Source: Phycisphaeraceae bacterium (GTDB taxonomy: Bacteria > Planctomycetota > Phycisphaerae > Phycisphaerales > Phycisphaeraceae). From it: a stretch of 64,000 bases of DNA. The position numbers were made by a program, and so were the translations under genes. The stretch covers positions 62,001 through 126,000 of the forward strand of contig JANQSF010000006.1 in NCBI GenBank assembly GCA_028284155.1, written 5' to 3'. The notes below the pieces were generated by a model. It searched no databases. It had not been told where the DNA came from and saw only the letters and a list, made by a program, of their open reading frames with translations. Within the stretch, counting starts at the first letter, position 1. The number at the start of each line of letters is the position of its first letter. Positions 12,301-63,712 of this stretch are shown here, in pieces.

Positions 12301-12321
12301 GCCGCTTGCGGCTTAGCGCTC
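12301..12321 (+). repeat. Dispersed palindromic repeat, copy 1
   Basis: Perfect copy of the consensus whose core is CCGCTTGCGGCTTAGCGCTC. It starts five bases after the coxC stop codon. GCCGC-TT-GCGGC forms a tight self-complementary stem and AGCGCT is a further palindrome. Confidence 0.75.
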
Positions 12322-14080: not shown

Positions 14081-14581
14081 TCAACCAAACACCGACGGCA
14101 AGCCGACCGCACGCCGCCAGGCGCTGAGTTGACCCAGATGCAGCATCGCGTGGCTGGTCATGATGAACGTCACCAGCTCGCCGACCGTCGGGAACATCGG
14201 GCGCAGCCCCTCGATTGGATTCTCGGCTGCGAGCGCCGCGTCGCCCGCCGCAGCAAACGCTTGGCTGACGCGGGCGTGGGCCTCTTCAAACGTGTTAAGC
14301 AGCGACGCCTTATCTGGATAACTCGACGCGTCTGTCACCGGTGTCGAGCCGTTGCCGAACGGTCCGTTCCAATCGTCGGGAACGACCGGTTCACCACCGA
14401 GCATCTTCGCGCCGTTGCTGAACGCATACGCGACGTGACCGAGCACCCACGCCGGGTGGTTCGGCACGACGTGCCCGTCGACGCTCGGCTGCAAGGTCAT
14501 CTGCTCGTCCGAGACATCCTCGACCAGTTTGCGTGCATAGACAAGATTGAAGTTTGAAACGGTCTGCGTCGGTTCGCTCAT
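14081..14581 (-). CDS. DinB-like metal-binding protein
   Basis: This 166-residue protein fits the DinB/YfiT four-helix bundle. The usual metal-binding His positions appear as W-V-L-GHVAYAF near residue 48 and as SHAMLHLGQLSAWRR near 140-155. Family members include thiol transferases and proteins of unknown function; the substrate cannot be told from sequence. It stands alone after the E1-like gene on the same strand with a 59-base gap, so it could be the last gene of the riboswitch operon. If so, a thiol-related role would make sense, but that is only inference. Confidence 0.75.
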   Translation of the reverse strand: MSEPTQTVSNFNLVYARKLVEDVSDEQMTLQPSVDGHVVPNHPAWVLGHVAYAFSNGAKMLGGEPVVPDDWNGPFGNGSTPVTDASSYPDKASLLNTFEEAHARVSQAFAAAGDAALAAENPIEGLRPMFPTVGELVTFIMTSHAMLHLGQLSAWRRAVGLPSVFG

Positions 14582-14640: not shown

Positions 14641-15798
14641 TTATCCGCCCACGTACTTCGCGTAGATGTTTTTCGCGGTGGTCGCTTCCTTCGTCCCCTT
14701 CACGATCGCTCTGCCGTCCTTAAAGAGCGTCAGCTCGTATGGCTCGCCGTTGTCGTGAATGTCCGCCCGTAGCATGAACGGATTGACCTTCACCGTCCCG
14801 TGCGGACGGAGCCGATCGGCGATGGCCTCGAAGTCCAGCCGATCGCCGTCGGCCGACTTCTGCGTCAACTGCACGGCGTTTCGGCCACAGAGGGTCGTCG
14901 TCGAGCTGCCGAACTTGCCGTCGAGGAACTCGAACTCGCGCTTTTTGCAACACACACACTCGCCCGCGTCGTAGGCACGCGCAACCTTGAATTGCTTGAG
15001 GTGATTCTGCCACAGGTCGACGTGCACCATCGCCGGGTTGACCGCGTCGAGGTTACCGGTGAGCACCTTCAACGTCTCGGCAACCTGGTAGTTGGCGATG
15101 ATGCTGACCACCGGGCCGATGACGCCGGCCGTGTCACACGTCGGATTCATGCCCGGAGGCGGCGCCTGCTCGAAGATGCAGCGGATGCACGGCGTCGCCC
15201 GGCCGGCACGTTCCCACGACGGTTGATTGGCGTCGTCAGTGCCGGGGGCGGCGTGGGGCAGGATCGCATACGTCATCCCGACCGTCCCGACCGCGCCGCC
15301 GTAGATGTACGGGATGCCGTGTTTCACCGCCACGTCGTTGACCACGAACCGCGTCTCGAAGTTGTCGACGCCGTCGACGATGATGTCGGCCTTCGAGCCG
15401 TCTTCGCACGTGATCAGTCGCTCGATATTCGTGTGGTTGATGTCGTCGACGATGGCCGTCACTTTGACCTGCGAGTTGATCCGCGCGATCTTCCGCTTGG
15501 CGGCCTCGGCCTTGGGGATGCCGTCGGCCACGTCGCCCTCATCGAACAACACCTGACGCTGAAGGTTGGTCACTTCGATGAAGTCGCGGTCGGCGATGAT
15601 CAGGTGGCCGACGCCGGCGCGGGCGAGCATGTTGGCGATGACCGTGCCCAGCGCGCCGCAGCCAACGATGAACGCGGTCGATTCGCGCAGCTTCTGTTGG
15701 CCTTCCTCGCCGAAACCGGGCAAGAGCATCTGACGGTGATAGCGGTCGAGGCCAGTAGTATCGGTGCTGGACGGGATGTCAGTCGTTGTCGTGTTCAA
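14641..15798 (-). CDS. E1-like adenylyltransferase (MoeB/ThiF/HesA family)
   Basis: Enzymes of this family adenylate the C-terminal Gly-Gly of a small sulfur-carrier protein so that sulfur can be added as a thiocarboxylate. The N-terminal LDRYHRQMLLPGFGEEGQ segment, the nucleotide-binding GCGALG (residues 46-51), the Arg-finger region NLQRQVLF, VDGVDNFETRF, and CDTAGVIGPVVSIIANYQ all match. Zinc ligands are probably the CIRC and CVCC pairs. No rhodanese domain is fused; a further ~80 residues form the C-terminus. I chose TTG 15798, which overlaps the upstream gene by 20 bases: no ATG/GTG lies between it and the conserved N-terminal motif, and starting at the internal Met would delete that motif. 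The partner is surely the Gly-Gly protein encoded at 16604-16888. Confidence 0.88.
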   Translation of the reverse strand: MNTTTTDIPSSTDTTGLDRYHRQMLLPGFGEEGQQKLRESTAFIVGCGALGTVIANMLARAGVGHLIIADRDFIEVTNLQRQVLFDEGDVADGIPKAEAAKRKIARINSQVKVTAIVDDINHTNIERLITCEDGSKADIIVDGVDNFETRFVVNDVAVKHGIPYIYGGAVGTVGMTYAILPHAAPGTDDANQPSWERAGRATPCIRCIFEQAPPPGMNPTCDTAGVIGPVVSIIANYQVAETLKVLTGNLDAVNPAMVHVDLWQNHLKQFKVARAYDAGECVCCKKREFEFLDGKFGSSTTTLCGRNAVQLTQKSADGDRLDFEAIADRLRPHGTVKVNPFMLRADIHDNGEPYELTLFKDGRAIVKGTKEATTAKNIYAKYVGG

Positions 15799-16207
15799 GG
15801 CGTTTACCCATATTGACGTTCTGTTCGACCGTGTAGCCGATCGATTCATAGAACGCGATGACTTCGGTGTTCGTCGCTCGGACCTGCAGGTTGATCTTCG
15901 GGCAACCCTGGGCTTTGAGAAGTTGCTCCGCCTCATCCATCATGCGTCTCCCGAGGCCGCCGCGCTGACGGCCCGGTGCGACAGCGAGGTAATTGATCAC
16001 TCCGCGGTGCCCTTCGTAACCCGCCATGACCGTCGCGACGACCTGTTCTCCTTCGACGCCGACCAGGAAAAGCTCCGGGTTAACCTGAAGTTTGCGGGCG
16101 ATATCCTTGTTCGGGTCATTCCAGGCGACGGTCAGGCCGCACTGTTGCCAGAGGTCGATGACGGCCTGTACGTCGTGCGGTTCGTAGGGGCGGATGATTA
16201 GTGGCAT
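15779..16207 (-). CDS. GNAT family N-acetyltransferase (YpeA-like)
   Basis: This 142-residue protein shows the GNAT acetyl-CoA motif PGRQRGGLGRRMM and the closing NTEVIAFYESIGYTVEQNVNMGKRL typical of the YpeA branch. It would transfer an acetyl group from acetyl-CoA to an amine; the substrate is unknown. It sits in the middle of the SAM-riboswitch operon, its 3' end overlapping the start of the E1-like gene. A substrate within the sulfur/methionine pathway (for example an amino acid) or a regulatory acetylation of an operon protein is possible but not shown. Confidence 0.85.
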   Translation of the reverse strand: MPLIIRPYEPHDVQAVIDLWQQCGLTVAWNDPNKDIARKLQVNPELFLVGVEGEQVVATVMAGYEGHRGVINYLAVAPGRQRGGLGRRMMDEAEQLLKAQGCPKINLQVRATNTEVIAFYESIGYTVEQNVNMGKRLEHDND

Positions 16208-16220
16208 ACTGGCACAATCA

Positions 16221-16237
16221 CGCTATGCCGCAAGCGG
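16221..16237 (-). repeat. Dispersed palindromic repeat, copy 2
   Basis: CGCTATGCCGCAAGCGG on the + strand, the reverse-complement core with one change (A to T). It lies just downstream of the NIL gene's stop codon and upstream of the GNAT start. Confidence 0.65.
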
Positions 16238-16243
16238 TGGAGG

Positions 16244-16498
16244 TCAGCCCGCGACGAGGCTGCCGCCTTCAACGGGGTCGACCTTGACGCCCAGGTCGAT
16301 CAGCGTTTGCAAGGCCGCATCGACCTCGTCCTCTTCGCCGTCGAACAGCACGGCCATGATGCCGATGTCCTTCTGGACGCTCGCCTGCCGGATGTCGAAC
16401 TGCACATCCGGGTGGGCGCGGGTCATTTTCCAGAGACAGGGCTCGTTCTGATGACCGCCCTCGAATGTGAGCCAGCATTTTCGTGTGACCTGGGGCAT
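16244..16498 (-). CDS. NIL-domain protein
   Basis: This 84-residue protein is essentially one NIL domain, a ferredoxin-like fold also found at the C-terminus of the methionine importer ATPase MetN and in the NIL-ferredoxin proteins of homocysteine synthesis. Matching features are the opening beta strand RKCWLTFEG, the segment 'EPCLWKMTRAHPDVQFDIRQASVQ', and 'IGIMAVLFDGEEDEVDAALQTLIDLGVKVDPVEGG'. No ferredoxin cysteine clusters are attached. In MetN this domain senses methionine, so here it may sense methionine/SAM or act with the thiocarboxylate pathway of its neighbours. The gene is flanked by two same-orientation copies of the dispersed repeat. Confidence 0.8.
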   Translation of the reverse strand: MPQVTRKCWLTFEGGHQNEPCLWKMTRAHPDVQFDIRQASVQKDIGIMAVLFDGEEDEVDAALQTLIDLGVKVDPVEGGSLVAG

Positions 16499-16519
16499 CG
16501 AATCGACTCCGTAACTTTG

Positions 16520-16564
16520 CCGACCGGGACGGTCGGCCTAATTAGCCTAACCGTCCCGGTTCGG
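16520..16564. repeat. Hairpin between sulfur-carrier and NIL genes
   Basis: CCGACCGGGACGGT (16520-16533) pairs with ACCGTCCCGG plus TCGG (16550-16564) around a loop holding TAATTA. The right arm, ACCGTCCCGGTTCGG, recurs with one change in a hairpin at 19108-19126, so this is probably a second family of interspersed palindromes. It may act as an mRNA-processing or stability element within the operon. Confidence 0.6.
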
Positions 16565-16583
16565 ACACGCTCGGATGACCGGC

Positions 16584-16602
16584 GCGCTATGCCGCAAGCG
16601 GC
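16584..16602 (-). repeat. Dispersed palindromic repeat, copy 3
   Basis: GCGCTATGCCGCAAGCGGC on the + strand. It lies one base downstream of the stop codon of the sulfur-carrier gene and carries the same A-to-T variant as copy 2. Confidence 0.7.
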
Positions 16603-16603
16603 G

Positions 16604-16888
16604 TCAACCGCCGGCGATGGCGGGGACGATCGACAATTCGTCGCCGCCCTTCAACGGCGTGTCGAGATTTTCGAGGAACCGGATGTCTTCGTCGTTCACG
16701 TAAAAGTTGATGAACCGGTTGACCTCGTTGCCGCCCTCTTTGAACAACCGGCCACCGAGTTCGGGGAACTGCTGCGTCAATGCGCCCAGCGCCTCGCCGA
16801 CCGTCGAACCGGTGACGTCAACGGTGGCGTTGTCGCCGGCCTGCGGTCGCAACGGCGTGGGGATCTGGATGGTGATGGTGTCGGACAT
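16604..16888 (-). CDS. ThiS/MoaD-type sulfur-carrier protein
   Basis: This 94-residue beta-grasp protein ends in Gly-Gly (SIVPAIAGG), as required for adenylation and thiocarboxylate formation. The internal pattern 'TVGEALGALTQQFPELGGRLF' and 'NRFINFYVNDEDIRFLENLDTPLKGGDELSIVPA' is typical of MoaD/CysO-like carriers rather than of ThiS (which is shorter). It follows the threonine-synthase-like gene and precedes the NIL and E1-like genes. The pairing of carrier, E1-like enzyme and PLP enzyme mirrors the CysO-MoeZ-CysM system of mycobacteria, in which sulfur passes from the carrier to a PLP-bound substrate. No JAMM-type protease to release the product is encoded nearby. Confidence 0.9.
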   Translation of the reverse strand: MSDTITIQIPTPLRPQAGDNATVDVTGSTVGEALGALTQQFPELGGRLFKEGGNEVNRFINFYVNDEDIRFLENLDTPLKGGDELSIVPAIAGG

Positions 16889-16933
16889 GTATTACTCCAA
16901 TGCGTGCTGACGCGCGGGGCGGCAGGTGCGTGG

Positions 16934-18199
16934 TTAGACAGTCTGCGGTGTTGACTCGGTTGTTTGCTCTTCGATCTGCTTCACCAAGGTGTCGAACTCG
17001 CCCATCTTGGCGTTGATCACGGGCGTCTCGGTGAACCGCCCCTGCATGACCTCGAGCGTCTTCAGGCCGTTACCTGTGATGCAGACGCAGATCGGTTCGT
17101 CACGCGGGATCCTGCCCTGCTGGATCAACTTGATCGCGCAGGCGAGGGTCGTGCCGCCGGCCGGCTCTGTGAAAATGCCCTCGGTGCGGGCCAGCAGTTG
17201 GATCGCTTCGATGATCTCGCTGTCCTCGGCACTGGCGCCCCAACCGCCGGAATCACGTATGACCTTGATCACGTAGTAACCGTCGGCCGGGTTGCCGATC
17301 GCGATGCTCTTGGCGATGGTGTTCGGCTTCTGCGGGTGGAACAGGTCAACGCCTTCCTCGATCGCTTTGACGACGGGGCTGCACCCCTCCGCCTGCGCGG
17401 CGTACATCGCGGGTTTGTTGTCCTCGACGAGGCCGAGTTGAATGAACTCCTGGTAGGCCTTCCACACCTTGGGCAAGATGGTCCCGCCGGCCACGGGCAC
17501 GACGGTGTGACGCGGCAGCCGCCAACCCATCTGCTCGGCGATCTCGAAACCGTGCGTCTTGGCGCCCTCGGTATAGAAAGGCCGGAGGTTGACGTTGACG
17601 ATCGCCCAGTTGTACTTGTCGGCGATCTGCGAGCACAGACGGTTCACGTCGTCGTAGTTGCCCTTGATCCGCACGACGCGCGGGCCGAACACCGACATGC
17701 CGACCATCTTCCCCTCTTCCAGGTCGTGCGGGATCATGACAAACGTGCGCAGGCCGGACGCGGCCGCATGGGCTGCGACGCTATGCGCGAGGTTGCCGGT
17801 CGACGCGCAGCCGACGGTGTCGAAGCCGAACTCGATCGCCTTGGTGATCGCGATCGACACGACGCGGTCTTTATAGCTGAACGTCGGGTGGTTGGCTGAG
17901 TCGTCCTTGATGTAGAGTTCTTTAACGCCAAGCTCCGCGGCGAGTCGGTCGGCCTTGACCAGCGGGGTGAGGCCGGAGTTGAAGCCGGTGCGCGGCTCGC
18001 CCTCGATGGGCAGCAGGTCTTTGTAACGCCAGAGCGACGCGGGCCCCGCCTCGATCGACTCGCGTGTGACTGTGCCTTGCATGGCGTCGTAGTCGTACGC
18101 GACTTCGACGGGGCCGAAGTCGTTGTCACAGACCGTCCGCGGCTCGATGCCGTACTCGGCGCCGCACTCTTTACAGGTCAGGGCGTGGACGAAGCTCAT
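16934..18199 (-). CDS. Threonine-synthase-like PLP enzyme under SAM-riboswitch control
   Basis: This 421-residue fold-type II PLP enzyme matches threonine synthases with an N-terminal zinc-knuckle-like segment (C9-x2-C12 ... C24). The PLP lysine is K110 in NHPTFSYKDR, and the phosphate-binding loop is GCASTGNLAHS. By family it would convert O-phosphohomoserine to threonine. But it heads an operon with a sulfur carrier, its E1-like enzyme and a NIL protein, and is controlled by a SAM-I riboswitch, which argues for a part in homocysteine/methionine synthesis: a thiocarboxylate-dependent sulfur transfer to the same substrate is a reasonable guess. Ordinary threonine synthase remains possible. 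The start ATG 18199 is chosen because any longer form would run back through the riboswitch terminator. Confidence 0.85.
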   Translation of the reverse strand: MSFVHALTCKECGAEYGIEPRTVCDNDFGPVEVAYDYDAMQGTVTRESIEAGPASLWRYKDLLPIEGEPRTGFNSGLTPLVKADRLAAELGVKELYIKDDSANHPTFSYKDRVVSIAITKAIEFGFDTVGCASTGNLAHSVAAHAAASGLRTFVMIPHDLEEGKMVGMSVFGPRVVRIKGNYDDVNRLCSQIADKYNWAIVNVNLRPFYTEGAKTHGFEIAEQMGWRLPRHTVVPVAGGTILPKVWKAYQEFIQLGLVEDNKPAMYAAQAEGCSPVVKAIEEGVDLFHPQKPNTIAKSIAIGNPADGYYVIKVIRDSGGWGASAEDSEIIEAIQLLARTEGIFTEPAGGTTLACAIKLIQQGRIPRDEPICVCITGNGLKTLEVMQGRFTETPVINAKMGEFDTLVKQIEEQTTESTPQTV

Positions 18200-18235
18200 G
18201 GGATGCTCCAATTCCCGGCGGACACACCGGTGCTC

Positions 18236-18278
18236 GCAAAAAACAAAACCCTTCATGTCATCGCAGACAAGAAGGGTT
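18236..18278 (-). terminator. Rho-independent terminator of the SAM riboswitch
   Basis: Reading the - strand, AACCCTTC (18278-18271) pairs with GAAGGGTT (18254-18247), and the stem is followed by TTTTGTTTTTT. It lies between the SAM aptamer and the start of the threonine-synthase-like gene, exactly where an expression-platform terminator should be. Confidence 0.9.
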
Positions 18279-18302
18279 CGTGGTCGTCGGGGTGTGACGC
18301 AC

Positions 18303-18440
18303 ACGCTTCTTATCTGCCCCCGAATCGACGGGGCGGAAGGTCGCACCATTTCCTCCCGCCAGAGAGTCGTGTTGACCCTTCCGGGGGGGCGGTTGCGGTG
18401 GCGTCAGCGGGTCCGGTCCCTCAGCCACTCTGGATAAGAC
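18303..18440 (-). promoter_or_regulatory. SAM-I (S-box) riboswitch aptamer
   Basis: On the - strand the RNA begins CUUAUCCAGAG-UGG-CUGAGGGA, continues CCGGACCCGCUGACGCC and CCGCAACC, then has the J3/4-P4 segment AAAUGGUGCGACCUUCC, and closes with GCAGAUAAG, which pairs with the opening CUUAUC to form P1. These are the hallmark conserved blocks of SAM-I: AGAG, GAGGGA-GG-CCC, UGA, GCAACC, GGUGC and the P1 closure. With a terminator 25 bases downstream, high SAM should stop transcription of the operon. Together with the operon's sulfur-carrier genes this ties the pathway to methionine/SAM supply. Confidence 0.93.
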
Positions 18441-18466
18441 GCGAGGTCTATTCGGTTGTCGAGAGC

Positions 18467-18472
18467 ATTATA
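18467..18472 (-). promoter_or_regulatory. -10 element of the riboswitch operon promoter
   Basis: A consensus TATAAT (reading the - strand, context CCGGTATAATGC) lies about 27 bases before the first aptamer helix. The -35 region is weak (CTGTTA, 16 bases upstream). The same CCGGTATAATGC string precedes rpsL. Confidence 0.65.
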
Positions 18473-28997: not shown

Positions 28998-29018
28998 GCC
29001 GCTTGCGGCTTGGCGCTC
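28998..29018 (+). repeat. Dispersed palindromic repeat, copy 4
   Basis: GCCGCTTGCGGCTTGGCGC (one A-to-G change from consensus), beginning at the base after the cysH stop. It lies between convergent genes and could also mark the 3' end of the cysH mRNA. Confidence 0.7.
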
Positions 29019-56212: not shown

Positions 56213-56821
56213 ATGCCTCTAGCTCTCGAAGCAATCGATGCCTACTTGAACCGTCTGTGTGACACGATCGATCGACTCGACCGCGAGCAGATCGACGACG
56301 TCGTCACGCTCTTCCGCGACGCGGCCGACGCCGGGCAGACCGTTTTCACGATGGGCAACGGCGGCAGCGGGTCGACCGCATCGCACATCGTTTGCGATCT
56401 GAACAAGGGGGCGTCGTACGACGCGGGTCGCGACAAGCGATTCAAGCTCGTCTGCCTGAACGACAACGTCGCTACAACGTTGGCCTACGGCAACGACGTC
56501 GGCTACGAGTCCATATTCGTCGAGCCGCTCAAGAATTTCATGAGCGCCGGTGACCTGGTGATCGGCATTTCCGGTAGTGGCAACTCGCCCAACGTCCTGC
56601 GCGCCGTCGAGTGGGCGAACGATCACGGCGGCGTGACGGTCGGCCTGACGGGCTACGGCGGCGGCAAACTCGGGCAGATCGCGCAGCACCACCTGAACGT
56701 GCCGATCGACGACATGCAGATCGCCGAAGACCTGCACCTCGTGTTCGGCCACATCTTGCTGCGTGTGTTCTGCGACGAGGCGTCGGCGTCGCCCAGCGCC
56801 AAGCCGCAAGCGGCTTTATAA
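56213..56821 (+). CDS. gmhA: Phosphoheptose isomerase (SIS domain)
   Basis: GmhA converts sedoheptulose 7-phosphate to D-glycero-D-manno-heptose 7-phosphate. The 202-residue protein has the SIS motifs TMGNGGSGSTASHIVCDLNK and GISGSGNSPNVLRAVEWAND, and closes with 'DDMQIAEDLHLVFGHILLRVF'. ATG 56213 follows GAAGGTCC. The last residues, SAKPQAAL, are encoded by a copy of the dispersed repeat, so the natural C-terminus appears to have been replaced or extended by it. It is divergent from the hddC-hddA unit. Confidence 0.93.
   Translation: MPLALEAIDAYLNRLCDTIDRLDREQIDDVVTLFRDAADAGQTVFTMGNGGSGSTASHIVCDLNKGASYDAGRDKRFKLVCLNDNVATTLAYGNDVGYESIFVEPLKNFMSAGDLVIGISGSGNSPNVLRAVEWANDHGGVTVGLTGYGGGKLGQIAQHHLNVPIDDMQIAEDLHLVFGHILLRVFCDEASASPSAKPQAAL
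56795..56814 (-). repeat. Dispersed palindromic repeat, copy 6 (inside gmhA)
   Basis: AGCGCCAAGCCGCAAGCGGC on the + strand. It forms the last codons of gmhA (SAKPQA) with the stop six bases after it. Confidence 0.7.
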
Positions 56822-62299: not shown

Positions 62300-63712
62300 T
62301 CAAGCGATCAATTCATTGATCACTTCGCCCCCCACCTGCGACAACTGCTTGAACCGACCCGCGTGGAAGTAGGTCAGCTTGTTGTCGTCCAGCCCGAGCA
62401 AGCGCAGCAGCGTTACATGTAAATCGCGGATCGGGTGGACGACCTCGACGGCCTTGTCGCCGATCTCATCGGTCGCGCCGACGACCTGTCCCGCATTGAC
62501 GCCGCCGCCGGCGAGCCAGATCGCCATCGCTTTGGCGTTGTGGTCACGGCCTTGTTTCACGCCGCCGCGCATGCCGTTGTCCGGGCTGCGCCCGAACTCG
62601 CCGCACCAGACGATCAGCGTTTGGTTGAGCATGCCGCGCTGTTTCAGGTCACGGATCAAGGCGGCGATCGGCTGATCCACCGCGCCGATGCGACGCCGGT
62701 GCGCGCGCTCGATGTAGTCGTGGCTGTCCCAGCCGGCCGCGTAGATCTGCACGAAACGCACCCCACGTTCAACCAGCCGACGCGCGAGCAAACATTGGCG
62801 TCCGAACCCATCGGTCAGTTCACCGCCGATGCCGTACGCGTCGCGCGTCGCCTGCTTTTCACGGTTCAGGTCGATCAGGTCGGGCACCTGCATCTGCATG
62901 CGGAACGCCAGTTCGTAGTTGGCCATGCGCGCGGCCAACTCGTCGTGTTGCGGGTGGCGCTTCATGTGTTCGCGGTTGAGCGTGGCTAACAGGTCGAGGT
63001 TGGCGCGCTGGTGCTCACGCGTCACACCCTTGGGCGGGTGCAGGTCGAGGACGGGCGAGCCCTGGGCCCGAAACGGCGTGCCCTGGTAATACGGCGGCAG
63101 AAAACCGTTCGACCAGTTGGCCGCGCCGCCCTGCGGGTACGCGACCTCGGGCAGCACGACGAAACCGGGCAGGTCCTGGTTGATGCTGCCCAAGCCATAG
63201 GTCACCCACGCACCGATCGCCGGGTCGCCCCCGAAGCGGTTACCCGTGTTCATGTGGTAATTGGCCGTCGGGTGGTTGATCGACTCGCCGACACAACCGC
63301 GGTAAACACACAACTCGTCCGCGACGCCGGCCAGGTGCTTCCAATGCTCGCACATGTCGATGCCGGCCTTGCCCGCCTTGACGAACTTGTACGGGCTTTG
63401 CACGAAGTACCGCTTGCCCGACGCCATGGCCGACGCGAACTTGTCCTGCCGCTTGAACTCTTTGAGGTGGATGTCCCTCAGTTTCGGCTTCGGGTCGAAC
63501 GTATCGATATGGCTCGGGCCGCCGGACATCATCAGGAAGATGCACCGCTTGGCCTTGGCAGCGACGTGCTGCGGCTTTACCGCCAACGGCCCTGCCGCTT
63601 GCGGCTTAGCGCTCTTGCCGCGCGACTCCCCCGTAACCAACCCATTGAACGCGACCGTCCCCAACGTCGCGCCCAACCCGTACATGACCTGCCTGCGTGT
63701 CGCATCCAGCAT
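62300..63712 (-). CDS. DUF1501 family protein, second copy
   Basis: This 470-residue secreted protein is a homologue of the one at 29058-30509: MLDATRRQVMYGLGATLGTVAFNGL leader, MMSGGPSHIDTFDPKPKL, 'NTGNRFGGDPAIGAWVTYGLGSINQDLPGFVVL', 'VWCGEFGRSPDNGMRGGVKQGRDHNAKAMAIWLAGGGVNAG'. ATG 63712 follows AAGGAG. Unlike the first copy it has no PSCyt1/DUF1553 partner here; the next gene is the methyltransferase-like/PQQ protein. Just after the leader, residues SAKPQA(A) come from the dispersed repeat. Confidence 0.9.
   Translation of the reverse strand: MLDATRRQVMYGLGATLGTVAFNGLVTGESRGKSAKPQAAGPLAVKPQHVAAKAKRCIFLMMSGGPSHIDTFDPKPKLRDIHLKEFKRQDKFASAMASGKRYFVQSPYKFVKAGKAGIDMCEHWKHLAGVADELCVYRGCVGESINHPTANYHMNTGNRFGGDPAIGAWVTYGLGSINQDLPGFVVLPEVAYPQGGAANWSNGFLPPYYQGTPFRAQGSPVLDLHPPKGVTREHQRANLDLLATLNREHMKRHPQHDELAARMANYELAFRMQMQVPDLIDLNREKQATRDAYGIGGELTDGFGRQCLLARRLVERGVRFVQIYAAGWDSHDYIERAHRRRIGAVDQPIAALIRDLKQRGMLNQTLIVWCGEFGRSPDNGMRGGVKQGRDHNAKAMAIWLAGGGVNAGQVVGATDEIGDKAVEVVHPIRDLHVTLLRLLGLDDNKLTYFHAGRFKQLSQVGGEVINELIA
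63594..63614 (+). repeat. Dispersed palindromic repeat, copy 7 (inside the DUF1501 gene)
   Basis: Perfect copy on the + strand (CCGCTTGCGGCTTAGCGCTC core). Read by the gene on the - strand it encodes SAKPQA, at the junction between the leader and the mature protein. Confidence 0.7.

Follow-up and report, generated by a model that had tools for sequence, protein, structure and literature searches.

A SAM-I riboswitch operon of a Phycisphaeraceae bacterium predicted to form homocysteine with a threonine synthase-like enzyme and a sulfur carrier

A stretch of 64,000 nucleotides from a Phycisphaeraceae bacterium (assembly GCA_028284155.1, contig JANQSF010000006.1, positions 62,001 to 126,000; hereafter the window) carries an operon whose leader and genes all lie on the minus strand (Table 1). 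The interval examined spans the leader to the gene for a NIL-domain protein, with the genes for a GNAT acetyltransferase and an E1-like adenylyltransferase falling just beyond it. Profile matches confirmed the gene order proposed earlier by a model that saw only the letters and their open reading frames (ORFs; the sequence-only reading): a pyridoxal phosphate (PLP) enzyme homologous to threonine synthase (ThrC), a carrier ending in Gly-Gly, the NIL protein, the GNAT enzyme and the E1. Judged from sequence, this is very probably a methionine operon of the MetM/MetO type, in which the ThrC-like enzyme would make homocysteine.

The gene of the PLP enzyme starts at the ATG at 18199, right past a terminator; the start in the program-made ORF list, which lies much farther upstream and lets the ORF run into the riboswitch aptamer, was dropped. 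The enzyme keeps K110 as its PLP lysine, along with the STGN loop, and it matched ThrC structures with E values of 1e-59 to 1e-52, the best named relative being Aquifex ThrC (2zsj, E 1.7e-59). The carrier ends in PAIAGG immediately before its stop codon, an AGG end being found in 15 of 16 aligned carriers, and is closest to CysO of M. tuberculosis (CysM-CysO structure 3dwg, E 6e-18). The E1, presumably starting at a TTG codon, has two CxxC pairs and no rhodanese domain.

Table 1. Features of the operon and its leader (positions are those of the window).
Feature	Position	Strand	Evidence
TATAAT, possible -10 box of the operon promoter	18467..18472	-	read directly
SAM-I (S-box) riboswitch aptamer	18307..18440	-	Rfam RF00162, 67.8 bits, E 1.1e-13
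Alternative antiterminator	18264..18316	-	P1 3' strand x terminator 5' arm
Intrinsic terminator GAACCCUUC...GAAGGGUUU + UGUUUUUU	18238..18279	-	-18.5 kcal/mol
MetM-type PLP enzyme, ThrC homologue, 421 aa	16934..18199	-	PF00291 3e-65
MetO/CysO-like sulfur carrier, ThiS fold, 94 aa	16604..16888	-	ThiS PF02597 6e-17
Free-standing NIL-domain protein, 84 aa	16244..16498	-	PF09383 2e-10
GNAT acetyltransferase, YpeA-like	15779..16207	-	NF002959 above cut-off
E1-like adenylyltransferase, MoeB/ThiF family	about 14641..15798	-	PF00899 2.5e-72; NF009123 331 bits
DinB_2 superfamily protein, after E1	14081..14581	-	PF12867 9e-14

The full S-adenosylmethionine (SAM) aptamer and the downstream terminator of the sequence-only reading were both borne out. 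The SAM-I match covers the whole model (1-108) at 67.8 bits, the gathering score being 44.4, and it is the single SAM-I riboswitch in the 7.2 Mb genome. The terminator consists of a hairpin (18279-18247) followed by a U-tract (18246-18238), and its -18.5 kcal/mol was better than that of ten shuffles, as were the terminators of 23 of 34 leaders, this one included; most relatives have a counterpart. It was not picked up by a consensus terminator scan, probably owing to the loop and stem limits of the scan. The folded leader contains P1 and the terminator together. Alternatively, the P1 3' strand (CAGAUAAGAAG, 18316-18306) can pair with the terminator 5' arm (CUUCUUGUCUG, 18274-18264) in an antiterminator duplex of 11 bp with one G-U (-13.3 kcal/mol), and this complementarity gives the leader the textbook geometry of a transcription switch. 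By that geometry it is a classical SAM-OFF switch, with SAM binding predicted. A comparable pairing was found in some relatives (L022, L028, L029, and L041), the longest pairings varying between loci, and in many of them the terminator 5' arm includes CTTCTTATC, which is complementary to the usual P1 3' strand. No -35 box matching the TATAAT motif was found.

The alignment with proven ThrC active sites showed that the PLP enzyme differs from them. In a tree of 57 proteins, comprising 40 rows of the window-enzyme clade and 17 rows of ThrC (among them four solved ThrCs, the Nitrospirota ThrCs and the second ThrC of the window's genome), the two groups were split at 100/100. The window enzyme grouped with that of the actinomycete Nonomuraea gerenzanensis, whose metM-metO-SAM-I locus anchors the assignment of the clade to MetM, the tree holding neither S. 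albulus MetM nor its M. aeruginosa homologue. Seven positions (T88, S155, N157, R160, G187, A194, and A240 in Thermus numbering) were invariant in 35/35 ThrCs and were L, N, R, Y, A, K, and S, respectively, in 86-87 of 88 MetM-type proteins, a comparison that is sharp though descriptive, with the groups set beforehand by identity. All seven are replaced in the window enzyme, and the Nonomuraea enzyme shares the replacements. Several of these positions presumably line the substrate pocket in the Thermus ThrC structures. The canonical ThrC model TIGR00260 cannot tell the two groups apart: the window enzyme passes it with 277.7 bits (cut-off 167.1).

The rest of the genome, a draft assembly 95.7% complete, was searched for the genes on which the prediction depends. 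A second ThrC-family gene lies elsewhere (C26; 245 bits) and retains all the canonical ThrC residues. Searches of the genome for MetX, for HcyBio/DUF39 (PF01837) and for the MetB/C/Y/Z family (PF01053) found none of them; the best PF01053 match reached 28.7 bits in fragments, and the weak matches (20-28 bits) were rejected as partial. A full-length MetH (1255 bits), a JAMM protein (75.7 bits), and two more ThiS-fold carriers are encoded elsewhere in the genome. Since MetH, a user of homocysteine, is present and the other homocysteine-making enzymes searched for are absent, the window enzyme is the sole remaining candidate among those searched. The genome is therefore not one with a complete classical methionine pathway and this thrC alone. 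These checks support the earlier proposal that the PLP enzyme may combine O-phosphohomoserine with a carrier thiocarboxylate, the enzymatic step itself being a prediction from sequence.

The distribution of MetM among Planctomycetota was consistent with this role. In a survey of 156 genomes of 90% completeness or more (MetM at E<=1e-100, PF01053 at E<=1e-60), MetM was present in 28 and PF01053 was missing from 16. MetM occurred in 14 of the 16 genomes lacking PF01053 versus 14 of the 140 having it (Fisher p=1.2e-10), and when complementation was counted by family the figures were 4 of 6 MetM families versus 2 of 50 others (p=6e-4). Of the two exceptions lacking both, one carries HcyBio; in the other (G010, 97% complete) none of MetM, PF01053, and HcyBio was found in the survey, and it would be either a methionine auxotroph or the user of a further route. 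Two or more ThrC-family genes were present in 22 of the 28 MetM genomes at a threshold of E 1e-40, under which an E. coli-type ThrC may score; a second one was missing at that threshold from six (G017, G035, G051, G064, G130, and G137).

These results also bear on whether the enzyme is a plain threonine synthase, co-regulated through the shared substrate, with the carrier, E1, and NIL serving another thiolation (molybdopterin, tRNA, or thiamin). This is very improbable. The best named matches and the best family models are all threonine synthases, but the enzyme falls in the separate 100/100 clade and has its residue signature, the genome has a second thrC, and its two other ThiS-fold carriers are free for other thiolations. 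Moreover, repression through SAM-I fits methionine and not threonine, and the other homocysteine routes are lost where the enzyme occurs.

The core of the system has a published precedent. S. albulus has a MetM that acts as homocysteine synthase on O-phosphohomoserine; its gene stands with metO, behind a SAM riboswitch (Hasebe et al., 2024, AEM 90:e01247-24, as related in PMC12172450). Homologues have been noted in cyanobacteria. Several points weigh against a homocysteine synthase in the window. The chief caution comes from a cyanobacterial member, the homologue in M. aeruginosa (51.6% to MetM of S. albulus), which reportedly acted in vitro as threonine synthase and threonine deaminase and gave no rise of methionine in vivo (PMC12172450). 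Two sister genera have both MetM and a MetB/C/Y/Z-family gene, although the presence of PF01053 beside MetM is no contradiction, because this family also includes catabolic lyases. Two planctomycete families (f23 and f36) have MetM with no adjoining carrier gene, and f23 lacks a second ThrC at E 1e-40. Finally, a metY could sit in a gap of the draft assembly.

Part of this evidence would suit a bifunctional enzyme, which would turn O-phosphohomoserine into homocysteine when given the carrier and into threonine when given water, the methionine branch being the one that SAM control serves. Such an enzyme is in line with the reported formation of threonine in vitro by the M. aeruginosa homologue (PMC12172450) and with families such as f23, where the MetM-type enzyme stands without a second ThrC at the threshold. 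It is nevertheless improbable, as a separate canonical ThrC is encoded in the window's genome, in 22/28 MetM genomes, and at all 23 Nitrospirota loci, and the conserved ThrC residues Ser155, Asn157, and Arg160 are replaced in the window enzyme. As for the two families themselves, f23 (L111, L112, and L113) has the full MetM residue signature, no carrier nearby and two PF01053 genes, and its enzyme is a candidate member with threonine-making or dual function. In f36 (L118, 1741-2904; L119, 593-1759) no carrier lies by MetM, and the gene for SAM synthetase (metK; confirmed by Pfam in L118) is found 2-3 kb upstream.

With the ThrC-like enzyme taken as a carrier-dependent homocysteine synthase, the pathway would run as follows. 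Using ATP, the E1 would adenylate the carrier at its C-terminal Gly-Gly, which would then be loaded with sulfur from a persulfide or sulfide to yield the thiocarboxylate. MetM would eliminate phosphate from O-phosphohomoserine on PLP, as threonine synthase does, and at the resulting PLP-bound vinylglycine intermediate would add the carrier sulfur at C-gamma in place of water at C-beta. Homocysteine could be formed directly, or be freed by hydrolysis of a carrier-homocysteine adduct, perhaps through the JAMM protein encoded elsewhere. MetH would methylate it to methionine, and the derived SAM would bind the leader RNA and stabilize P1, so that the terminator would form and turn the operon off. 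The separate canonical ThrC would make threonine from the same intermediate. To the NIL protein an accessory role may fall, in binding methionine or homocysteine or in handling sulfur.

Relatives were collected as 80 named loci, and neighborhoods among them were compared. SAM-I lies directly upstream in all those tested from Phycisphaerae (20/20) and Myxococcota/Delta (10/10), in two Omnitrophota and in Nonomuraea; it was not found at the eight Nitrospirota loci tested. The Phycisphaerae order is MetM-carrier-NIL-(GNAT)-E1-DinB-DinB-class V aminotransferase, the last being likely a cysteine desulfurase, and the Myxococcota order is SAM-I-E1-MetM-carrier-CysK-NIL. One Omnitrophota locus (L086) reads CysK-JAMM-ThiS-CysK-sulfite reductase with a TusA domain-MetM-carrier-E1-NIL. 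The Nitrospirota loci have hom, TusA, JAMM, or E1 upstream, followed by MetM-carrier-NIL-ThrC-phosphoglycerate-mutase-like protein-aspartokinase, placing both users of O-phosphohomoserine (MetM and ThrC) beside precursor-making genes. In N. gerenzanensis, SAM-I, MetM (49%), and carrier (44%) stand in a row, and at L080 a rhodanese is fused to the E1. Across the loci MetM and the carrier are constant, and the sulfur supply changes. A "CysK" about 1.3 kb upstream in every neighborhood locus was rejected, being MetM itself matching the PALP profile. At L070 (6241-9172) and L065 the carrier and the E1 form one in-frame fusion (PAIAGG-IDFTEEQIERYSRQ), with NIL, and at L070 an HcyBio/DUF39 gene (521 bits) follows the fusion, which puts two homocysteine enzymes in one cluster.

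The Myxococcota-type loci, where a CysK/CysM-like gene separates the carrier from NIL, are relevant to another explanation, in which the operon would make cysteine from O-phosphoserine as in CysO-CysM. One carrier may feed both products there, and the carrier of the window is nearest to M. tuberculosis CysO (E 6e-18). The PLP enzyme, however, belongs to the ThrC family and scores poorly against the CysK/CysM models (36-38 bits; 35.8 bits for cysM, whose cut-off is 394.2), the control is by SAM-I, and the complementation runs with homocysteine genes. Cysteine synthesis is thus the least probable of the explanations considered.

A near-constant partner of MetM and the carrier was the NIL gene, present at 34/36 Phycisphaerae, 23/23 Nitrospirota, and 7/10 Myxococcota/Delta loci. 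The NIL profile matched the C2/NIL regulatory domain of MetN (3dhx, E 1.3e-9). A single-sequence search of the PDB had given only matches to a mitochondrial ribosomal protein, dismissed as chance. The MetN domain binds L-Met and inhibits the transporter, and in E. coli MetN the change N295A abolishes L-Met binding (PMC12357092). The column aligned with Asn295 holds N in the Myxococcota and Nitrospirota NIL proteins and D in those of Phycisphaerae. NIL is also part of the DUF39 homocysteine route (PMC5764234). The likeliest role of the protein would be that of a methionine or homocysteine sensor, the alternative being that of a thiol or redox partner. More broadly, it is tentatively proposed, as a real possibility rather than an expectation, that carrier-dependent homocysteine synthesis in Planctomycetota, Myxococcota, and Nitrospirota has NIL as a so far unrecognized third core component, and that the DUF39 route, though unrelated, uses it too. 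It would act on MetM as a feedback subunit that binds methionine or homocysteine, or else as a thiol-handling partner. With the dedicated E1 (and, in relatives, with JAMM, TusA, sulfite reductase, and CysK) NIL would make up a sulfur-assimilation module complete in itself, the same carrier feeding both cysteine and methionine. The observation that, in Phycisphaerae, Myxococcota, and Nitrospirota alike, a free-standing NIL is a near-constant neighbor of the MetM-carrier pair is new.

In Wolinella succinogenes, the thiocarboxylate of the carrier HcyS is the sulfur donor for homocysteine, with E1 and JAMM partners, and MetY, a PF01053 enzyme, acts on O-acetylhomoserine. The window system resembles it in the proposed donor and in the E1 and JAMM partners, but its genome has neither a PF01053 enzyme nor MetX. 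With CysO/CysM/MoeZ/Mec of M. tuberculosis it shares a CysO-type carrier, an E1, and a PLP enzyme of fold type II; unlike CysM, which makes cysteine from O-phosphoserine, its enzyme is ThrC-like, and unlike MoeZ, its E1 has no rhodanese domain. As in the DUF39 (HcyBio) and NIL/ferredoxin route (PMC5764234), a NIL protein stands beside a (here predicted) homocysteine-forming enzyme, and L070 has HcyBio, MetM, and NIL together; the window's genome, by contrast, has no DUF39, its NIL has no ferredoxin domain, and the substrate would be homoserine-derived. Its NIL resembles the MetN domain by the profile match to 3dhx and differs in being free-standing, with no ATP-binding cassette ATPase.

The closest system is MetM/MetO of Streptomyces, which has, as far as PMC12172450 relates it, likewise a ThrC-like enzyme by a carrier with a SAM riboswitch upstream, and to which the lack of other homocysteine genes in the window's genome also corresponds. 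The Nonomuraea locus has this layout, with an enzyme of the same clade and residues, and has no E1, NIL, or DinB nearby, whereas the window operon, from a different phylum, adds its own E1, NIL, GNAT, and DinB. The variant methionine route of the sequence-only reading was thus supported, but its novelty is lower than supposed, the core of MetM, MetO, and SAM riboswitch being already known for Streptomyces since 2024. In the literature searched, in which Hasebe et al. (2024) was covered through PMC12172450, no dedicated E1 inside a SAM-I operon, no complementation in Planctomycetota and no constant NIL partner were found.

The results would add Planctomycetota, Myxococcota, Nitrospirota, Omnitrophota, and others to the groups with this methionine route, and would explain methionine synthesis in genomes that resemble methionine auxotrophs. 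Autotrophs with no known homocysteine route have been noted (PMC5764234), and the MetM clade is a candidate route for some of them. Many "thrC" annotations are probably homocysteine synthases, which the residue signature separates, and the conserved NIL partner is brought to attention.

Downstream of the E1, a DinB_2 gene is the neighbor in 30 of 36 Phycisphaerae loci. In most of these bacteria (L021-L052) the operon is followed by one or two DinB_2 genes and a class V aminotransferase; the window cluster has one DinB (14081-14581) and no class V aminotransferase. For DinB, a role connected with thiols is conceivable. In about 22 Phycisphaerae loci the last gene of the cluster is cysteine-desulfurase-like; no such gene was found in the window cluster, the best match among the loci examined in its own genome being 31%. 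The GNAT gene, present in 7/36 Phycisphaerae loci, is optional cargo.

Additionally, a short repeat, CGCTTGCGGC(A/T)TAGCG, occurs in the window in six copies with at most two mismatches, versus 0.1 expected (16221-16236, 16585-16600, 12303-12318, 63596-63611, 29000-29015, and 56797-56812), two identical copies lying immediately past the carrier and NIL stop codons. An inverted repeat without a U-tract (CCGGGACGGT...ACCGTCCCGG, 16515-16565, minus strand) lies between these two genes and perhaps forms an intercistronic mRNA structure.

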